Of a stretch of DNA of 11,005 bases, positions 1,949 to 11,005 are shown piece by piece (positions within the stretch are counted from its first letter, which is position 1; each line of letters begins with the position of its first letter). The position numbers and the translations under genes are program-made. The notes below the pieces were generated by a model. It was not told where the DNA came from. It saw nothing but the letters and a program-made list of their open reading frames with translations, and did no database searches. The DNA is taken from positions 1 through 11,005 of the forward strand of contig JABSPC010000030.1 of NCBI GenBank assembly GCA_013215515.1, given 5' to 3'. The DNA comes from Crocinitomicaceae bacterium. Lineage in GTDB: Bacteria > Bacteroidota > Bacteroidia > Flavobacteriales_D > Crocinitomicaceae.

Positions 1949-2060
1949 AATAATTTGTAATAAAAAATGTAACCAAATCGGTGAATGTTCCGTTATATCG
2001 AAACACATAGATCCTGTAATTCGTTAATAAAGATATCCGGAAGATTTAAAAAGAGGTAGA

Positions 2061-3626
2061 ATGAAAAAACTTTTGTTATTTACTATAGTGGCTGCGACGC
2101 TAGCTTCGTGTAGTACTAGATCAGGGCATTTGGAAGGTGCACGTGGAAGAGTGCCATACCATCCAGAAATTCCTTTAGGAATGATATACATACCTTCTGG
2201 TAGTTTTACCATGGGGGAAAATGATGGCGACATGCCTTTCCTTCATCAGACTAGAGCTAAAACTGTATCAATTCAGGCTTTCTATATGGACCAAACGGAA
2301 ATTTCGAACAATGAGTACCGCCAATTCGTAGAATGGGTTCGTGACTCTATTGCAAGAGAGAAAATCTACTTTGGATTAGAAGAAGCTGAAGATGCAAGCA
2401 GATGGATTAACTATAAAGAGTATTACTTTAGTGAAGGTGATTTGGAATACGTTGATTATGATGCAGAAGAACGTGATATCAACCGTGAGATTTTCAGTTT
2501 GAACTGGGATCGTAGATTTTACTACGCAGATCCTGAGTTAGTTCCGCTTTTGGCGGATATGTACTATCCACAACCAGAGCGATTCTACAAGCGAAGAGAG
2601 ATCGATACTCGTAAGTTGGTTTTTACTTACTATTGGATTGATTATGTTGAAGCAGCAAAAAGAGGACGTATTAATATAACACCTAATGCCTTTAGTAGCG
2701 ATGGTGTAAAATTGGTTCCTGAGCATAGAGAATTAGATACACCCCCACATCCTTTTACAGGACAGCCACAAGGACAAGATTTAAACTTGTCACAAGGTGT
2801 TGCTGGTGAAGGGTCTATTAACAAGAAAGGTCAGAGTAATGCAATTCGTGGACATGCTAACCGTCAACGTTTCATTATTGATGAGAAAATCAATGTTTAC
2901 CCAGATACATTATGTTGGGTACGTGATTTTACATACTCATTCCATGATCCAATGACTAACATGTATTTCTGGCATCCAGCATATGATAACTATCCAGTTG
3001 TTGGTGTGACTTGGACTCAAGCAAAAGCATTCTCTATTTGGAGAACACAACTTTTGAATTCATGGCTAGTTGAAATGGGAGATTTATTCGTGAATGATTT
3101 CCGTTTACCAACTGAAGCAGAATGGGAAAGAGCTTCAAGAGGTGATTTGGAATTATCACAATATCCTTGGGGTGGACCTTATATTAGAAATGAATCCGGT
3201 TGTTTCCTTGGGAACTTTAAGCCAATGCGTGGTAGATACTTCGAAGATGGTGGTTTCCATACTGTAAAGGTATACTCATACAATCCAAATGGTTGGGGAT
3301 TATACTGTATGGCAGGAAATGTTTCTGAGTGGTGTGAAACTGCTTACGATGAATCGATGTATGAGTTCTCTCATGATTTGAATACTGATTACAGATACAA
3401 TGCAATGGATTGGGATCCACCATCAATGAAGCGTAAAGTTCTTCGTGGAGGGTCTTGGAAAGATATTGGATATTACTTGAGAAACTCAACTCGTACATTC
3501 GAGTATCAAGATACAGCTAAGTCATACATTGGATATAGAAATGTAATGACACACCTAGGACGTGGAGGTCGTGACTTCACAAAAGAGGGTGGCGAAGAAA
3601 TTCGAAGCGATATTCAACTTCGCTAG
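2061..3626 (+). CDS. gldK: GldK, T9SS ring lipoprotein with FGE/SUMF1-like fold
   Basis: The 521-residue product begins with a lipoprotein signal peptide with lipobox LASC, so Cys17 should be lipidated. The purine-rich stretch aagaggtag just before the ATG supports this start. A formylglycine-generating-enzyme (SUMF1) fold is split: the first part, IPLGMIYIPSGSFTMG to about residue 95 (EISNNEYRQFVEW), then a GldK-type insertion to about 310, then YPVVGVTW (311-318), FRLPTEAEWERASRG (347-361), MAGNVSEWC (417-425), LRGGSW (461-466) and IGYRN (490-494). The two active-site cysteines of true FGE enzymes, just after the GGS motif, are replaced here by Asp468 and Leu473, so the fold is structural. 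GldK joins GldN in a large periplasmic ring attached to the outer membrane and contacts the GldM tip. The stop is TAG, backed by an in-frame TAA; gldL begins 61 bp downstream. Confidence 0.96.
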   Translation: MKKLLLFTIVAATLASCSTRSGHLEGARGRVPYHPEIPLGMIYIPSGSFTMGENDGDMPFLHQTRAKTVSIQAFYMDQTEISNNEYRQFVEWVRDSIAREKIYFGLEEAEDASRWINYKEYYFSEGDLEYVDYDAEERDINREIFSLNWDRRFYYADPELVPLLADMYYPQPERFYKRREIDTRKLVFTYYWIDYVEAAKRGRINITPNAFSSDGVKLVPEHRELDTPPHPFTGQPQGQDLNLSQGVAGEGSINKKGQSNAIRGHANRQRFIIDEKINVYPDTLCWVRDFTYSFHDPMTNMYFWHPAYDNYPVVGVTWTQAKAFSIWRTQLLNSWLVEMGDLFVNDFRLPTEAEWERASRGDLELSQYPWGGPYIRNESGCFLGNFKPMRGRYFEDGGFHTVKVYSYNPNGWGLYCMAGNVSEWCETAYDESMYEFSHDLNTDYRYNAMDWDPPSMKRKVLRGGSWKDIGYYLRNSTRTFEYQDTAKSYIGYRNVMTHLGRGGRDFTKEGGEEIRSDIQLR

Positions 3627-3687: not shown

Positions 3688-4488
3688 ATGAAACCAGGAA
3701 GTAAAGCATGGAAACAATTAATGGCAAAGTTGTATGGAATTGGAGCAGCAGTCGTTATTATGGGAGCATTATTTAAAATTATGCACTGGCCTTACGCAGG
3801 GCCGATGCTTGTAGTAGGTCTTAGTACTGAGGCAGTAATTTTCTTCTTCTCCGCATTCGAACCTATTCACGAAGATCCAAATTGGGAATTAGTATACCCA
3901 GAGTTGGCATTAGGTCATTCTGATGATTTAGATCATGATAACCTTCCTGTGGGAGGTCGTGGGAACGGAATCACTGACCAACTTGATAAAATGTTGGAAG
4001 AAGCGAAAATCGATGGTGAATTATTAGAACGTCTTGGAGACGGCATGAGACACTTAGGTGAAAATGCTGCACAATTAAAAGGTGTAACGTCGGCAGTAGC
4101 AGCTACTGATTCTTACGTTGATAGTTTACAAGCGGCATCTGATAAGGTATCTACTTTATCTGAAGCTTACGAAAGAGCGTCTGTTTCTATCTCAGGAATG
4201 ACTTCTTCTCAACCAGAAGGTGAATCTTTCGGAGAGCAAATGCAAAAAGTATCTAAAAACCTTTCAGCACTGAATAATGTTTATGAATTGCAATTGAAAG
4301 GATCTTCAGCTCATCTAGAAGCAACTGAGAAATTCCAAGGTCAAGTTACTGATATGATGCAGAATCTTTCTGATTCTGTTGAGGATACTCGTCTGTACAA
4401 AGAGAACATGTCATTGTTGTCTAAGAACTTAACTGATCTTAACTCTGTTTACGGAAATATGTTACAAGCTATGACAATTAAAGGTTAA
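3688..4488 (+). CDS. gldL: GldL, inner-membrane motor protein of T9SS/gliding
   Basis: GldL surrounds the GldM transmembrane helices and uses the proton gradient to drive GldM. Two hydrophobic helices are clear: about residues 14-31 (YGIGAAVVIMGALF) and 39-56 (PMLVVGLSTEAVIFFFSAF). Polar membrane residues typical of the family are present: Lys30 and His33 at the end of helix 1, and Glu48 within helix 2, matching Glu49 of Flavobacterium johnsoniae GldL, which is essential there. FEP after helix 2 is also conserved. The cytoplasmic part (about 60-266) is acidic, helical and longer than in F. johnsoniae GldL (about 215 residues, from memory). It carries three related segments, KVSTLSEAYE (153-162), NLSALNNVYE (191-200) and NLTDLNSVYG (247-256). 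A purine-rich AAGGAAAA stretch precedes the ATG. gldM follows 42 bp downstream without a terminator. Confidence 0.95.
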   Translation: MKPGSKAWKQLMAKLYGIGAAVVIMGALFKIMHWPYAGPMLVVGLSTEAVIFFFSAFEPIHEDPNWELVYPELALGHSDDLDHDNLPVGGRGNGITDQLDKMLEEAKIDGELLERLGDGMRHLGENAAQLKGVTSAVAATDSYVDSLQAASDKVSTLSEAYERASVSISGMTSSQPEGESFGEQMQKVSKNLSALNNVYELQLKGSSAHLEATEKFQGQVTDMMQNLSDSVEDTRLYKENMSLLSKNLTDLNSVYGNMLQAMTIKG

Positions 4489-4530: not shown

Positions 4531-6291
4531 ATGTCAGGAGGAAAAGAAACCCCTAGACAGAAGATGATCGGTATGATGTACTTAGTACTCACCGCTCTTC
4601 TGGCACTTAACGTATCCAAATCTATCCTTGATGCATTCGTAGCTATTGAGGAAAACACACAACTAGGTAATATCGCTCAAGTAGAACGTGGTGATGGATT
4701 TATCATAGCTGTAAGAGGCGAGAAAGGGGCATTACAAGCTACTGATCCTAAGGGAAACGCGGCTAAGATTAAGAGTATTGATGAAGCCCTAAAACAAATG
4801 GACAAAATCAATAAGATTACAGGTGTAATGATCAAGTCAATTGATGATATCAAAATTGATATTTTGAAAAAATCAGGCGAGGCTGTTGATACTTACAAAG
4901 ATAATGATGAGGAGTCAATAATGTGGATTAAATATGATGGCAGCAAAGAAAATCAATGTCGTCCTATACGTATGCACTTAATGGCTGTTCAGGCAAAAGA
5001 TCAATATGACGTTCCAATGCATGAAATTATTGGAGAAGAAATCACAAATCCAACAGGATCGGGAAAGAAACTTTGGACGGATCTTATTCAATATCGTACT
5101 GACCTAATGACTCTTGCTGGAACATACAAGTGGGGCGGTAAGCAGTTTAAAATTGATGTTAAAGCTATTAACAAATACAAGGACAACAAACAGCTATCCA
5201 AAATGATTTTGGATATGACAAGTGGTGATGATGTGAATCCTGATGATGTAGAAGGATTAGGAATGATTTACAACCGTTTGACTAAAAGAGAGAGAAATGA
5301 TGTTCACGATGTAAAGGACGTTCATTGGATTGGAATGACGTTTGATCACGCACCTTTAGTTGCGGCACTTGCATCGTTGTCTTCAATGCAACAAGATATC
5401 TTATCTGCACGTGCTGAAGCACTTTACTTGTGGAAACAAAAAATCTCTACTGGTGAGTACTCGTTCGATAAAATTATGCCATTGGCATATGGACCTGGTT
5501 CTGTAAGAGGAGGTGAAGAATTTAAGCTTGATGTAATGATGGCTGCTTTTGATTCTCAAAATTCTCCAGTGGTACTTGTTACCGAAGGAGGAGAAGGTAG
5601 TAAAACTACTTACAACGGCGGTGTTGGAACAGTAACGCTTAGAGCAGGTGGTTCTAGTATGATGTTGAAAGGAACCGTTACGATTAAGAATAAGCAAGGA
5701 GCCGAGAAAACACGTAAATGGGAATATGAAGTTCCGGTTATTACTCCAAATGGTGCAATTGAATTGACAGATTTGAACGTACTATATAGAGGTTACCCAA
5801 ATAAGGTAGAGATTTCAGGATCTGGATATGAAACAGTTTCGTTAAGTGGAACAGCTTCAATTTCAAAGGTTGGAAAAGGATACATTGTTAAACCTGGTAA
5901 AGGTAGAAGTGCAACCCTTTCTGTAACTGGTAAAAATAAAGACGGAACTTCTAAAGTGTTGAAGACTGCAAAGTATAGAGTTAGTAACTTACCAGATCCT
6001 ACTTTATATTGGGGATCTGCAAAAAGTGGAGCTAAAGGATCAAAAGGTTCTCGTTTACTTCGAGCAAAATACCCACCTGAAATTCCATTGAAAGCAGACT
6101 TTACATTGGTAAGTTGGACTTGTTATGCTCCAGGTTTGAAGGGAAAACCACCAACAGGTAGTGGAGGTAATATCGGAGGAGCTGGACCGCTTATTAACGC
6201 ATTGAAAGCAGGCTCTGGAATTAGCTTTACTTGTAAGGTTAGAGGCCCAGATGGTATCACTAGACAAATTGGTGGAGGTTGGTCTCTGTAA
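4531..6291 (+). CDS. gldM: GldM, motor stalk spanning the periplasm (first, intact copy)
   Basis: This 586-residue protein begins with the highly conserved MSGGKETPRQKM, followed by a single transmembrane helix at about residues 12-32 (MIGMMYLVLTALLAL...). The large remainder is periplasmic and corresponds to the extended four-domain GldM/PorM rod. Conserved family segments include VHWIGMTFDHAPL, LASLSSMQQDI, IMPLAYGPGSV, LPDPTLYWG, PPEIPL and the C-terminal KVRGPDGI. GldM dimers couple the proton-driven GldL rotor in the inner membrane to the GldK/GldN ring, which the C-terminal domain touches. It is longer than the roughly 515 residues I recall for GldM of F. johnsoniae and PorM of P. gingivalis. 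A Gly/Lys/Ser-rich stretch (SAKSGAKGSKGS) lies just before the last domain. There is no good Shine-Dalgarno sequence before the ATG, as is common in this phylum. gldN starts 43 bp on. Confidence 0.96.
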   Translation: MSGGKETPRQKMIGMMYLVLTALLALNVSKSILDAFVAIEENTQLGNIAQVERGDGFIIAVRGEKGALQATDPKGNAAKIKSIDEALKQMDKINKITGVMIKSIDDIKIDILKKSGEAVDTYKDNDEESIMWIKYDGSKENQCRPIRMHLMAVQAKDQYDVPMHEIIGEEITNPTGSGKKLWTDLIQYRTDLMTLAGTYKWGGKQFKIDVKAINKYKDNKQLSKMILDMTSGDDVNPDDVEGLGMIYNRLTKRERNDVHDVKDVHWIGMTFDHAPLVAALASLSSMQQDILSARAEALYLWKQKISTGEYSFDKIMPLAYGPGSVRGGEEFKLDVMMAAFDSQNSPVVLVTEGGEGSKTTYNGGVGTVTLRAGGSSMMLKGTVTIKNKQGAEKTRKWEYEVPVITPNGAIELTDLNVLYRGYPNKVEISGSGYETVSLSGTASISKVGKGYIVKPGKGRSATLSVTGKNKDGTSKVLKTAKYRVSNLPDPTLYWGSAKSGAKGSKGSRLLRAKYPPEIPLKADFTLVSWTCYAPGLKGKPPTGSGGNIGGAGPLINALKAGSGISFTCKVRGPDGITRQIGGGWSL

Positions 6292-6334
6292 CTATTATTG
6301 GTTGATCCCGTTATAGTTTTGAATACCCTTAAAA

Positions 6335-7381
6335 ATGAATAATATGAAAAATGTTTTGATTGCTTGTTTAGTCCTAGTTGGATTATCAGCTAATGCCCAA
6401 AATGAGGAAATTAACGGCGGTCCCGTAAATGTACCTTCTGATGGTATTATTGATGGGGTATTTATTCAAGAACACATTCCTACAAAGCGTATGATTCCTT
6501 ACGAATACGTTCGTGAAGCTGATGCGATTTGGAGTAGAAGAGTGTGGGAATCAATTGATTTACGAGAAAAGATTAACCATAACTTATATTACCCGCTGGA
6601 TGAAATGCAAGCTGGTATTTGGACACGTAATGCATCTAGATGGAGTCTTTGGACTGTAATTAGAACGCATGTGTTAAATGGTGACTTAACTGTTTTTTCT
6701 CCGTTTAATCCAATTCTACTTGGTTTTGGAGCAAATGATGGTGATCAGTTGAAATACCCTATTAACCCTCAACCGGGACTCAATTTCTTTACGGATAGTA
6801 TCTTTAGATCGGAATTGACAAATTACTATTTGGCAAAACTGGGACCTGAGGGAACTATACCGAGAATTGATGAAGATCCAAATTCACCAAACTTTGGTGA
6901 GAATCTTACTACAATCGATGAAGATGGATTCGAGGCATACGTTTATGATGCACCGGATACTACATGGACAATGTCACAAGACATTGTACAATATCGATTG
7001 AAAGAAGATTGGTTCTTTGATAAGGAAAGATCTGTATTGGATGTGCGAATTATTGCAATGGCTCCAGTTAGATATGGAATAGAAACAGATCCAAATGGAA
7101 AGATTCAAGTAACGGGTCTTGAGGAAATGTTCTGGTTGTACTTTCCACACTGTAGATTCGTGTTCAATAACTATTTTGTATACAATGCCAAAAACGACGC
7201 ACAATGGATGAGTTTTGACGACGTATTCTGGAAACGCAGATTTAACGCTGTGGCGTATAAAGAAAGTAATACCTTTGATAGAGATATTGAAACATATCGA
7301 TCAGGTGTTGATGCTTTGTACGAATCAGATCGTATTAAGAATGAAATTCGAAATATTGAGCATGACGTTTGGTCATTCTAA
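6335..7381 (+). CDS. gldN: GldN, periplasmic ring protein of T9SS (first, intact copy)
   Basis: The 348-residue protein has a Sec signal peptide with probable cleavage at ANA|Q (21|22). A second in-frame ATG at 6344 (MKNVLIAC) would give an equally good signal peptide and could be the true start. Family features include DGIIDGVFIQEHIPTKRMIP near the mature N-terminus, IDLREKINHNLYYPLDEM, SRWSLWTVIRTHVLNGDLT, and a strongly conserved C-terminal half with GLEEMFWLYFPHCRFVFNN and SFDDVFWKRRF, ending in IEHDVWSF. GldN (PorN) binds GldK to form the ring under the outer membrane and contacts the GldM tip. It is the last gene of the main operon: a perfect hairpin terminator begins 18 bp after the stop. 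A diverged second copy follows directly. Confidence 0.95.
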   Translation: MNNMKNVLIACLVLVGLSANAQNEEINGGPVNVPSDGIIDGVFIQEHIPTKRMIPYEYVREADAIWSRRVWESIDLREKINHNLYYPLDEMQAGIWTRNASRWSLWTVIRTHVLNGDLTVFSPFNPILLGFGANDGDQLKYPINPQPGLNFFTDSIFRSELTNYYLAKLGPEGTIPRIDEDPNSPNFGENLTTIDEDGFEAYVYDAPDTTWTMSQDIVQYRLKEDWFFDKERSVLDVRIIAMAPVRYGIETDPNGKIQVTGLEEMFWLYFPHCRFVFNNYFVYNAKNDAQWMSFDDVFWKRRFNAVAYKESNTFDRDIETYRSGVDALYESDRIKNEIRNIEHDVWSF

Positions 7382-7399
7382 ATAAAAGAGAACTTAATG

Positions 7400-7434
7400 A
7401 AATCCCTCTCGGCTTAACCGAGAGGGATTTTTTA
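7400..7434 (+). terminator. Rho-independent terminator closing the gldK-gldN operon
   Basis: A perfect 13-bp stem (arms 7400-7412 and 7418-7430) with a 5-nt loop (CTTAA) is followed by a T-run. The GC-rich centre CCCTCTCGG pairs without mismatch. It lies directly after gldN and separates the main operon from the second gldN copy. Confidence 0.93.
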
Positions 7435-7512
7435 TTATATAAGCTTTTTGGTGTAACGGTTTGATCATAAACGTTAAGCATATGATGCCCTTTAAACCTA
7501 AAAGTAAAGTAT

Positions 7513-8532
7513 ATGAAAAAAGTAGTTATGGCATCACTCGTACTGTTTAGTTTTACAGCAAAAGCACAATTCGGACCTCTTGGTGTACCGTCACCTGGAA
7601 TAATCGATGGAATCGCATTAGGTACCCACATTCCAACAAAAAGAATGGTCCCCTATACAAATTTTGGTGAACGTGACATGATGTGGAGTAAAAGAGTCTG
7701 GTCATCAATTGACTTAAGACAGAAAATTAATCACGCGCTTTATTATTCTATGGATGAAATTCAAGCGGGCATTTGGACAAGGAACTCGACCAGATGGAGT
7801 TTGTGGACAATTATTAGAACACATGTTTTAAACGGTGATTTAACGCTCTTCTCGCCTTATAATCCTATTCTTATGGGATTTAGTGCAAATGATGGTGATC
7901 AACACAAATATCCCATAAAACCAACACCTGGCTTAAATTTTTATACGGATTCTATTTTTAGAGATCAACTTTCCTTTTATTTAGCTGAAATTGGACCGGA
8001 AAGTGTTATTGCGGAAATTGAAGAAAGATCAGGTCATCCATATTTTGGAGAAGTTATTATGATTGATTACCCAGATGGATCCAGAGGGGCTAAATATCCA
8101 GATCCTGATACTACTTGGGTTATGTCTGATGAGATCGTAGAATATCACTTAAAGGAAGATTAGTTTATTGATAAACAAAGATCTGTTTTGGATGTTAGAA
8201 TAATTGCTATGGCTCCGGTGATATATACTACGGAAATTGACCCCAATGGAAAGCGCCAAATCACAGGTTTGGAAGAAATGTTTTGGTTGTACTTCCCGCA
8301 CTGTAGATTTGTATTCAATAATTATTACACTTACAATTCTGACAATGATTCTCAATGGATGAGTTTTGATGATTTATTCTGGAAAAGAAAGTTTAGTTCT
8401 GTAGTTTACAAGGAAAGTAATACGGCCGATCTAGGCATTCAATATTATCGAATTGGAGTTGAGGCACTACAGGAATCGGAGATTATAAAAGAAGAAATAA
8501 GAGGAATCGAGCATGATGTTTGGTCCTGTTAA
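7513..8532 (+). pseudogene. gldN: Second gldN copy (gldO-like), interrupted by an amber codon
   Basis: The frame runs from ATG 7513 to TAA 8530-8532 but contains one TAG at 8161-8163, exactly where GldN has a Trp codon (LKEDW becomes LKED-stop). One G-to-A change explains it. Read through, the product has 339 residues against 348 for the first copy. It keeps a signal peptide (cleavage near AKA|Q), IPTKRMVPY, TRWSLWTIIRTHVLNGDLT and all of the C-terminal half. The 122 residues after the stop align with GldN without a gap, 91 of them identical. As it stands only 216 residues would be made, lacking the conserved core. Placement right after gldN parallels gldO of F. johnsoniae, a partly redundant gldN paralogue, but orthology is not shown. 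I saw no convincing -7 box in 7435-7512. Alternatives are readthrough, suppression or a base-call error. Confidence 0.85.
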
Positions 8533-8549
8533 AAAATAATTTAAAATTT

Positions 8550-8586
8550 AAAACCCGCTTTCAATCCTTTTGATAGCGGTTTTTTT
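8550..8586 (+). terminator. Rho-independent terminator after the second gldN copy
   Basis: An imperfect hairpin: the arm AAAACCCGCT (8550-8559) pairs with AGCGGTTTT (8575-8583) with one bulged C. The upper stem TCAA/TTGA lies above a T-T mismatch, with a 5-nt loop. Seven T residues (8580-8586) follow the GC-rich part. It separates the second gldN from the second gldM, so the two copies are probably not one transcription unit. Confidence 0.75.
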
Positions 8587-8687
8587 GCTGCTTATTATGA
8601 CTTATTTTTTTATGGGGATCTAAATTTCCTTTGTTACTTTCTGTTTCGAATTCCATTCCATTCATGAAACCAATAAAAACTATAATC

Positions 8688-10447
8688 ATGTCAGGAGGAA
8701 AAGAAACACCAAGACAAAAAATGATAGGAATGATGTATCTAGTCTTAACAGCTTTGCTTGCATTGAACGTTTCCAAATCTATTTTGGATGCATTTGTTGC
8801 AATTGAAGAAAATATGCAAAAAGCAAATTTGACAGAGCTGTTTAGAGGAGATGAGAAAAAGTCAGAATTAAAAGAAACCGCATTTGATGACACCAACCCA
8901 GAACGAGCTAGAAAAGCAAAAATTTTATTCGAGGCGGTTGAGCAAATTGATAAAATTACTGCGGAAAGAATTCGAGAAATTGATGGCTTAAAAATGGAAA
9001 TTCTTAAAGCTTGTGGGGAGGATGTTAGTACAGTTAGCCAATCAGGAAGCATTATAATGGAGAAGTACAACAATAAGGAAAATCCATTGAAACCAATTCG
9101 AATGAATTTGTCGTTTGTTAATGGGAAAGATAAATATGATGACCCAATGCGTATCATGTTGGGAGAGGAAACGGATATCAAGAACCCAAAAGGTAAAGGA
9201 TTGAAGCTTTGGAACTCCTTGAACAAATATAGAGCGCAGATTACAGAATTGGTGGCTTCTACGCATGTTTACACCAACAAAAGTGGTAAGGCAGTTACCG
9301 ATACAAAGTATTCATTCAAAGCGCCAAGTATTAATAAATTTAAGGACCAAGCTGATCTAAATAGGCAAATTAAGAAATCTATGAGCAAACAAAATGTGCA
9401 CTTGGATGACAAAGATGCGATACTGGAAATTTACAGAGGGTTGACTAAAGAGGAGCGAATGGATGTCGATGAGATGAAAGGAGTGCATTGGATCGGAAAA
9501 ACGTTCGATCACTCTCCTTCAGTAGCGGCAATTGCTTCACTTTCATCTTTGCAAAAGGAGATTTTGGCAGCAAGAGCAAGTGCAATTACCACAATTAGAA
9601 GTAGAGTAGGTGGTGGTGAGTATTCATTTAATCATATTATTCCATTGGCGTACGGACCTGAAGTTGTGAATGCAAACGAAGAATTTACCGTTGAAGTTTT
9701 AATGGCTGCATATGATAGTGATAAAAAGCCAGAGGTTGTTTATAATGGTGAAATCATAAAAGATGTTCGTAACGGAAAAGGATACATTAAGTTGAAAGGA
9801 TCTGGATCGACCATGGAATTGAGCGGAACTGTTTCGATTCGGAATAAGTCCGGATTGAAAAAGGAAATGGCTTGGACAAAAACCATTACTGTAATGAAAC
9901 CTCAAGGTTCAATTGAAATGCCACAATACAATATCTTGTACCGTGGATACGATAACATTGTTAACGCTACAGCTTCAGGTTATGCTTCTACAGTTTTGAC
10001 ACCATCAAATGCAACAGCGGTACGATTTGGTGAAGGTTATATTGTGAGACCAGGAAGCGGAAGATCGTCAACCTTAACCGTGTCAGGACGAACAGCGGAT
10101 GGGCGAACCGTTCAATTGAAGAAGGTTCAGTACAAGGTTGTGAGCCTTCCTGACCCGACTCTATATTTAGGTTCATCCAAAGATGGTGGGAAGTGTGGAT
10201 CTTCAAGACTTCTTCAAGCAAAGTTACCACCTGAGATTCCATTAAACGCGAAGTACAAAGTGCTTAGTTGGAAATGTAGCACTTCATCAATGAGAACTCA
10301 CCTATCACTGGAAGTACTGGGAATATAACACCCGCAGGAGTTTTGATCAACGCGGCACAATCTGGAACAATGATCACATTTGTGGTTAAAGTAAGAGGGC
10401 CAGATGGAATTGTAAGAAATGTAACCGGAAGTTGGGCTAAGAATTAA
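8688..10447 (+). pseudogene. gldM: Second gldM copy, broken by a one-base deletion near the 3' end
   Basis: The start at 8688 is chosen because its first 42 residues are identical to those of the first GldM; in-frame codons upstream add only non-homologous residues. The frame holds through the TM helix, VHWIGKTFDHSPS, IIPLAYGPEVV, LPDPTLYLG and LPPEIPL, then leaves the family at about 10280-10290 and stops at 10326-10328 (546 residues, the last dozen or so unrelated). The homologous ending continues from 10289 in another frame (ITGSTGN, LINA, KVRGPDGI) to TAA at 10445-10447. Restoring one base gives 586 residues, exactly the length of the first GldM. In the rejoined tail 26 of 45 aligned residues match. 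The unrepaired protein would lack the end of the domain that meets the GldK/GldN ring. No slippery heptamer is seen. The T-rich gap before it has only near-matches to the -7 box. Confidence 0.87.
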
Positions 10448-10465
10448 TCGATCAAATTAATAAAG

Positions 10466-10498
10466 AAATCCTTCTTGATTATTTCAGGAGGGATTTTT
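10466..10498 (+). terminator. Rho-independent terminator after the second gldM copy
   Basis: A 12-bp stem (10466-10477 with 10485-10496), containing two G-T wobble pairs, encloses a 7-nt loop and ends in a T-run at 10494-10498. It follows the restored gldM stop codon (10445-10447) rather than the premature one, which supports the view that the original gene ended at 10447. Confidence 0.85.
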
Positions 10499-10522: not shown

Positions 10523-11005
10523 ATGATTAATTTAGAACAAGTTGGTGTACACCTTCCACAAGGATACCTTTTTAAAGATATTAGCCTTCAGATTAACGAT
10601 GGAGATAAAATAGGATTGGTAGGGAAAAATGGAGCCGGTAAGTCAACGATGCTAAAGTTAATATCTGGTGAAAGTCCAGTTTCTGAAGGAAAAGTTCATA
10701 AACCAAAAGACTGTACAATAGGCTATTTGACTCAGGACCTTAAGATTGATACAACGCAAACCGTATTCGATTACCTTCTAAACTCAAATGTTACTTTAAG
10801 AACGCTTAATGCTAGAATTGAAGAAATAAACCTGCTTTTAGTTGAACGTACAGATTATGAATCTGAATCGTATATGGCGATGTTGGATGAATTGAACGAC
10901 TTGAATCACGATTTCTCATTCAATGCAGGGTTTTTATGGGAGGAAAAGATCACATCTACTTTAATTGGCTTAGGTTTTGCCGAAAATGAATTAAAAAACA
11001 GCTTA
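10523..11005 (+). CDS. ABC-F family ATPase, N-terminal part (3'-partial)
   Basis: The first 161 residues are present; the gene runs off the right edge. The start is the ATG just after the promoter box and gives the typical ABC-F beginning (MINLEQVGVHLPQGYLFKDI). The Walker A motif GKNGAGKST is at residues 34-42 and the Q-loop region GYLTQD follows at about residues 74-79. The following helical, acidic segment (RTLNARIEEINLLL...) is as expected for the first ATPase domain's arm region. The protein has no membrane segment, as in ABC-F proteins, which act on ribosomes (EttA, Uup and antibiotic-protection types) rather than in transport. The subfamily cannot be decided because the inter-domain linker and second ATPase domain are outside the window. 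It appears to be a separate transcription unit, functionally unrelated to the T9SS genes. Confidence 0.88.
   Translation, partial: MINLEQVGVHLPQGYLFKDISLQINDGDKIGLVGKNGAGKSTMLKLISGESPVSEGKVHKPKDCTIGYLTQDLKIDTTQTVFDYLLNSNVTLRTLNARIEEINLLLVERTDYESESYMAMLDELNDLNHDFSFNAGFLWEEKITSTLIGLGFAENELKNSL

Follow-up and report, generated by a model that had tools for sequence, protein, structure and literature searches.

A second gldM and a second gldN beside gldKLMN in a Crocinitomicaceae genome: a possible alternative stalk for the type IX secretion motor

Why should a bacterium with a single gldK and a single gldL carry two copies each of gldM and gldN, the genes for the stalk and the ring of the type IX secretion system (T9SS)? 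The question is raised by a stretch of 11,005 bases (hereafter the window), one whole contig (JABSPC010000030.1) of a metagenome-assembled genome (MAG) of the family Crocinitomicaceae (79% complete, 796 contigs). Open reading frames, together with Pfam and NCBIfam matches, give the gene order as a gene which we take to be arginase-like (it has no match in either database), porP/sprF, gldK, gldL, gldM, gldN, a second gldN, a second gldM and an ABC-F gene. Proteins of the GldM/PorM family form a 5:2 motor with GldL and are coupled to GldKN. The original prediction, made from the letters alone, saw in the extra genes an exchangeable ring-and-stalk module, and its description of the locus was accurate: the extras lie beside gldKLMN in swapped order and on the expected strand, each is followed by its own terminator-like hairpin, each carries one lesion, and gldK, gldL, gldM1 and gldN1 carry none. 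A profile search of this 79%-complete genome found one GldK, one GldL and no second copy of either over the cut-off. The explanation that we favour is a different one, in which GldM2 would be an alternative stalk on the single GldL motor, sharing the GldKN ring, and GldN2 a GldO-like, dispensable ring subunit; we give it a probability of roughly 0.47, slightly short of even.

The second gldM (8688–10447, forward strand) belongs to the family by several measures. Its part before the frameshift (8688–10328) scores 201.6 bits against TIGR03517, over the cut-off of 180, and is 48% identical to GldM1 over 549 columns; the protein has a single N-terminal transmembrane (TM) helix with the conserved start, its first 42 residues being those of GldM1. 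The frame departs from the family near 10285–10300 and the conserved C-terminal end resumes in another frame, with a stop at 10445–10447, so that this frameshift leaves the D4 tip incomplete in the window, whereas it is complete in relatives P0122–P0126. An AlphaFold2 model of the intact relative P0122 reached a mean predicted local distance difference test (pLDDT) score of 84, with the first 28 residues below 50, and a predicted template modelling (pTM) score of 0.52, and its top seven PDB matches were all PorM/GldM chains (7cmg, 6ey4, 6ey5, 6ey6, 7sb2). The predicted fold confirms membership of the GldM family, not function, and GldM2 resembles known GldM/PorM proteins (TIGR03517; PDB 7cmg, 6ey4, 6ey5, 7sau) in TM helix, D1, immunoglobulin (Ig)-like domains and, for the P0122 model, fold. 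No excess of rate was seen for gldM2 in six comparisons (p 0.28 to 0.80), nor for gldM1 or gldN1, and against the nearest genome, G011, the ratio of non-synonymous to synonymous divergence (dN/dS) was 0.04 for gldM2, 0.11 for gldM1 and 0.08 for gldN1, the gldM2 value resting on a dS of 2.3, near saturation. With no acceleration and such a low ratio, the gldM2 lesion would be either recent or an assembly error.

Comparison of GldM domain by domain across the genus revealed two old kinds of shaft. The TM region is 97% identical both within and between types, and identity in D1 reaches 59% and 56% within the M1 and M2 types and 40% between them. A tree of D1–D2 resolved an M1-type clade (Shimodaira–Hasegawa-like approximate likelihood ratio test, SH-aLRT, 100) and an M2-type clade (98), the latter containing 20 of the 21 second copies plus six first-position genes (G005, G006, G016, G022, G026 and G032); the second copy of G027 lies on the M1 side. 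The D1–D2 of the M2 type can therefore serve in the main operon, and in G026 it is that of the sole GldM found. Grouping all first-position genes into one clade was rejected by the approximately unbiased (AU) test for the whole protein (p = 7e-55) and for D1–D2 (p = 2e-61).

The outer part of the protein behaves in another way. The last ~115 residues of the six first-position M2-type genes are M1-like on average, and in a tree of D4, which has 96 columns and few firm forks and leaves out the window GldM2, those of G006, G016 and G032 group with the first-position genes of G007, G012 and G028 (SH-aLRT 94). In the window's clade the D4s of first and second copies stand together (14 rows, support 97). 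Moreover, the identity between the two GldMs of one genome exceeded that between genomes by an amount that grows along the molecule: over 14 genomes (18 minus G005, G016, G022 and G027) it was 0.003 in TM, 0.003 in D1, 0.024 in D2, 0.029 in D3 and 0.051 in D4, values reached in 1367, 1272, 25, 3 and 0 of 5000 permutations, respectively, and over all 18 genomes 0.007, 0.007, 0.026, 0.029 and 0.061. No such excess is expected after an old split without exchange, and therefore the outer part of GldM would have been either exchanged between copies or adapted to a shared partner. The ring or track common to both is the natural candidate, since D4 of PorM interacts with PorKN, the periplasmic part of GldM contacts GldK, GldN and GldO in two-hybrid assays (PMC8986121), and GldN has been proposed as the contact on which the motors push (PMC12635249).

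The second gldN (7513–8532, forward strand) has a reading frame interrupted by an in-frame TAG at 8161–8163. Its two pieces, 7513–8163 and 8164–8532, match PF19841 with 48.9 and 112.6 bits, both over the cut-off of 23, and scored separately against TIGR03523 they reach 46.6 and 81.0 bits (cut-off 85.9); up to the stop, the 222 columns aligned with GldN1 show 62% identity. G011, whose proteins are 88% (GldM1), 91% (GldN1) and 86% (GldM2) identical to those of the window, has an intact gldM2, and between it and gldN1 just the start and the end of gldN2, with the middle gone. Intact relatives exist for both extras (P0002 for GldN2, 84%; P0124 for GldM2, 85%), probably encoded on one and the same contig of 18,015 bases. 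In the GldN tree the branch of the window GldN2 measures 0.14, longer than those of its sisters P0002 (0.029) and P0003 (0.057). Relative-rate counts against P0002 gave 27:10 (p 0.005) with outgroup P0004 and a non-significant 21:15 (p 0.32) with P0006, the excess sitting before the stop (21:3 and 13:7) and being absent after it (6:7 and 8:8); a count of 42:6 was set aside, since its outgroup, P0003, stands with the compared sequence P0002 in the tree. At 73 near-invariant columns the window copy deviates at two besides the stop, P0002 and P0003 at none, and other GldN2s at 0 to 5. To judge from the longer branch and the rate counts, gldN2 has probably been under weakening constraint for a while. 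Relaxed selection on both extras, as originally proposed, thus finds moderate support for gldN2, with one of two fair outgroups, and none for gldM2. The reverse situation was seen in G032 (L111:7697–8730), where a frameshift interrupts the first gldN and gldN2 is intact, although in a MAG of 72% completeness the frameshift may be an error. Open frames of 718–725 amino acids had hinted at a fused GldN-GldN protein, which was rejected, as stops part the two genes in L042 and L106.

How the extras are distributed was followed in 60 genomes, 37 of the family and the rest of the order. GldK was matched in 56 of them and GldL in 58, always by a single protein over the cut-off. Eight genomes (G002, G018, G021, G024, G031, G035, G049 and G053) were left out of the locus table because their operons were cut by contig ends, were not fetched or gave no match, and among the remaining 52 both extras occur in 17, GldM2 alone in 10, GldN2 alone in 4 and neither in 21; the window is scored here as having both though broken, G011 as lacking GldN2 despite its remnant, and GldN-like matches elsewhere in a genome below 120 bits are excluded. 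Within the genus, 18 of 31 tabulated relatives (own genome set aside, together with G024 and G031, whose loci are cut or missing) have a second GldM. The order gldKLM-N-N-M is open throughout in G003, G004, G005, G017, G020, G025, G040, G043, G044 and G055, and also in G061, of another family, so that relatives with the intact layout and one GldK and one GldL do exist; gldKLM-N-M loci occur in G011, G015, G019, G027, G033, G052, G058 and G084, and in G037 a second gldM-gldN lies away from the main operon, adjoining an ABC-F gene. G038 carries a GldN2, and a single GldM was found in it.

The extras may also be transcribed apart from the main operon, as suggested by what surrounds them. An intrinsic terminator follows gldN1 (7399–7431, 14-pair stem and T-run), a terminator-like hairpin follows gldN2 (8555–8587, 10-pair stem and T-run) and a terminator follows gldM2 (10464–10498), all on the forward strand; such hairpins lie 3′ of gldN1 in most relatives compared and 3′ of gldN2 in several. 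Upstream of gldK there is a bipartite element, a putative promoter (TGTAACC-N15-CCGTTATATC, 1968–1999, forward strand), whose form GTAAC-N13-18-CGTT is present in 50 of 57 gldK loci (0.06 in shuffles) and whose strict form occurs once per genome in six of six genomes, always just upstream of gldK. The element before gldN2 (GTAAC-N14-CGTTA, 7453–7476, forward strand) has in relatives the form GTAAC-N14-19-TTAT, found in 18 of 22 other gldN2 loci. That before gldM2 (TGTTACTT-N14-CATTCC, 8632–8659, forward strand) is the only strict match in its own genome; its shared form TGTTACT-N11-16-CATT never appeared in shuffles (0.00), and over ten genomes the strict pattern hit gldM2 in five and five other sites (G015, G017, two in G025, G027), against one for the reversed control. 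These counts cover relatives of shared ancestry and show conservation, not promoter activity. In this line, codon bias is weaker in the second copy of gldM in 27 of 30 genomes and in that of gldN in 20 of 23.

Are gldN2 and gldM2 then one unit, duplicated together as a matched ring and stalk? The two do co-occur over the 52 genomes more than expected (Fisher p 0.0007, uncorrected for kinship), and they are adjacent and both broken in the window. The association nevertheless drops to p 0.067 in the genus alone and to p 0.38 among genomes at least 90% complete, and the independent pairs are too few to give significance. They do not always go together, 14 genomes having one extra only and 10 of the 27 with GldM2 lacking GldN2. 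Terminators separate them in many loci, and G011 retains gldM2 without a working gldN2, both of which speak against a joined unit. As for a single origin, the window GldN2 falls in a genus subclade with those of G017, G020 and G025, and forcing the 17 genus-level GldN2 rows into one clade cost 125 log-likelihood units (AU p 0.00023), whereas the D1–D2 of the two GldM types are old. The compared pairs of paralogues gave no sign of recent conversion of whole genes, their synonymous differences being 0.65–0.92 per site. A module of common birth is thus very improbable. A better description is an old second type of stalk, which probably shares motor and ring with the first type, together with a GldO-like ring subunit that arose independently. 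Of the two outcomes that had been named beforehand as speaking against the module, lineage-specific duplications at different times were found, and a lack of relatives with an intact pair was not. Likewise, from the proposed exchangeable GldN/GldM on one GldL and GldK, alternative parts on one motor remain a fair reading because intact extras coexist with one GldK and one GldL, while the matched pair is lost.

It could also be that second copies mean simple dosage, without distinct function, coming and going by duplication, conversion and loss. Their turnover is high, with 12 changes of GldM2 and 9 of GldN2 inferred on a gldK+gldL tree of the 52 genomes, decay is visible in the window and in G011, the gldM2 element recurs before gldM1, and genomes of the genus with GldM2 are larger (median 3.5 versus 2.6 Mb, p 0.0034). 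Such redundancy is rather unlikely, given that the D1–D2 types stay separate in the genus (save G027 and the six first-position genes), with the low D1 identity between them, and that purifying selection on gldM2 seems strong, with the reservation on dS given above. It is unlikely, too, that errors of assembly or consensus produced one or both of the lesions and that the pair is intact in living cells; the fragmented MAG, the unaccelerated gldM2, the acceleration of gldN2 with one outgroup only and the intact copies in near relatives would fit such errors, but the longer gldN2 branch, the gldN2 remnant in G011 and the absence of lesions from the four main genes would not. GldM functions as a dimer with strands swapped in its Ig-like domains (PMC10202324), and a heterodimer of GldM1 and GldM2 within one GldL pentamer would make an asymmetric stalk, for which the likeness of D2–D4 of both types within a genome is what might be expected of co-assembling partners. 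We consider this quite unlikely, as D1, also dimeric, does not follow the genome, 25 of the 52 genomes carry just one GldM, and the two genes are parted by terminators and differ in codon bias in most genomes.

Several observations weigh against the alternative stalk as well. Since both window copies are broken, this genome does not itself show a second-stalk function. D4s of the M2 type are diverse (41% identity within the type, against 55% within M1 and 44% between types), which alone pulls comparisons towards M1, and the start motif GKETPRQKMI occurs in 17 of 24 M2-type rows versus 26 of 27 of M1 type. The tree places the D4s of G005 and G022 near first-position genes without resolving them, and that of G026 elsewhere. 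One clade of first-position D4s was rejected (AU p 0.00016, 96-column tree), a result which, taken together with the mixed D4 grouping in the window's clade, fits tips that follow the genome and not the gene. The D1–D4 permutations ignore kinship among genomes, and gene conversion at the 3′ end, with no selection exerted by a common ring, could also produce the D4 gradient, as could heterodimers. As regards transcription, just 15 of 29 gldM2 loci carry TGTTACT-N11-16-CATT, which is also found 5′ of gldM1 in 7 of 62 loci and of gldL in 1 of 60, so that the element may have come along with the gene. The gldN2 pattern is not distinct either, fitting 40 of 57 gldK sites, and the idea of a separate promoter for each extra is weakened by both overlaps. 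The loose form GTAACC-N14-17-GTTAT was rarer than its reversed control in four of four genomes, and no genome-wide regulon was found, either with this gldK/gldN2 pattern or with the strict gldM2 pattern. In the window itself codon bias hardly differs between copies (gldM1 42.2, gldM2 42.6; gldN1 45.8, gldN2 44.3).

What the analysis shows is the gene content, the layout, the histories of the genes and a likeness of the two GldMs of one genome that increases along the protein; with GldM2 as an alternative stalk these would be connected as follows. The near-identical TM helix would fit GldL and allow GldM2 to assemble on it, the shaft D1–D2 would have diverged, and the D4 tip would have kept its fit to the resident GldKN ring or track, common to both stalks and presumably touched by GldM2 too. 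Transcribed apart from the main operon, as the upstream elements suggest, this second stalk would perhaps serve another load, speed or cargo set, and GldN2, of independent origin and frequently lost, would add a further subunit to the ring and would likewise be transcribed separately. Neither extra is whole in this organism, whose cells would rely on GldKLMN alone, any order of decay being presumptive. A more far-reaching version, in which two kinds of GldM stalk would be in use side by side in Crocinitomicaceae and share a single GldL pool and a single GldKN track, with D1–D2 setting gearing or load response and recombination keeping both D4 tips fitted, is doubtful.

Dual-stator flagellar motors (MotAB/MotCD, PomAB/MotAB) have two force-generating parts that act on one common partner and are chosen by expression. 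The likeness lies in two alternative parts on one partner, although stators swap there as whole units and here the stalk alone is doubled, with GldL shared. Compared with known GldM/PorM systems, the difference is that two types of stalk protein coexist with a single GldL, D1–D2 having diverged and the tip being more alike within a genome. GldO of Flavobacterium johnsoniae is a GldN paralogue encoded by the side of gldN, present in the GldKN complex and partly redundant (PMC9127263, PMC10202324); GldN2 is likewise a GldN paralogue adjoining gldN and may be called GldO-like in that sense, but the copies studied here have more than one origin within a single genus and are missing from many genomes. 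A swapped shaft with a genome-matched tip would mark which part of GldM needs to fit a shared partner and which part is free to vary, and bears on how the GldLM motor passes force to the outer-membrane ring or track. First-position genes with an M2-type shaft are natural hybrids for such tests. If true, the T9SS would be a motor with exchangeable stalks, of which the window is a decaying example, ordinary in that respect. In the open literature we found no description of a second gldM beside gldKLMN, nor of Crocinitomicaceae with gldM, an absence that carries little weight; the words "two GldM" in PMC12239597 refer to the dimer, and "gldm2" was not found in the main text of PMC8986121.

The other genes of the window are all on the forward strand. 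A porP/sprF-family outer-membrane protein gene (959–1948; PF11751 166.5 bits, TIGR03519 173.9 bits) lies 5′ of gldK (2061–3626; TIGR03525 556.5 bits), the sole copy found, followed by gldL (3688–4488; TIGR03513 250.4 bits), the sole copy over the cut-off, by the intact main stalk gene gldM1 (4531–6291; TIGR03517 190.4 bits, M1-type clade) and by the intact main ring gene gldN1 (6335–7381; TIGR03523 171.1 bits). Across the end of gldM1, a second gldK-type element (6287–6315, forward strand), present in the window, G011, G017, G020 and G025 (5 of 61 loci), is possibly an extra gldN promoter. TGTTACT-N-CATT in the gldL-gldM1 gap of G003, G005, G006, G008, G009, G010 and G038 may be an internal promoter before gldM. 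The ABC-F ATPase gene (10523–11005), truncated by the contig end, neighbours gldM2 in many relatives. TAnnTTTG, which we take to be a housekeeping-type motif, precedes it in 25 of 46 cases (4.5 expected), and shows no enrichment ahead of the extras (0 of 19 gldN2, 1 of 8 gldNx and 0 of 32 gldM2/gldMx, with 1.6, 0.7 and 3.3 in shuffles). In Porphyromonas gingivalis T9SS genes are under an extracytoplasmic function (ECF) sigma factor (PMC8265659). First-look, unscored counts of Por_Secre_tail per genome, used because scored matches stop at 78 per genome, follow genome size, and no fewer than 230 potential T9SS effectors have been described for Fluviicola taffensis (PMC10202324).

A scan of viral contigs found nothing. 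In a phylum-wide sample GldM_3rd matched in 105 of 392 genomes (the probe is incomplete, having missed G054 of the same family), and, outside the genome of the window, second matches in frames of more than 400 amino acids came only from G414, set aside for lacking a GldM-type membrane start, and from G483. In the latter (L224:4953–7967) a compact GldL (191 amino acids) is followed by a GldM (435 amino acids) and by a reading frame which we take to be OmpA-like. This second GldM (L224:4953–6848) belongs to its own GldL-GldM pair, perhaps a separate and perhaps proton-driven motor judging from that GldL and the OmpA-like neighbour; as in the window there are two GldMs in one genome, but here the second has a GldL of its own. 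Two genomes of another family of the order, outside the phylum sample, carry a second full-length GldM far from gldKLMN (G077:C1:993688–995268 and G089:C14:18364–19944), which outscores the operon copy on TIGR03517. Finally, L223:75–1004 (G000:C584) encodes a protein of 309 amino acids with a GldM_3rd-like half and without a GldM-type membrane start or D1, that is, a free GldM-tip-like protein.

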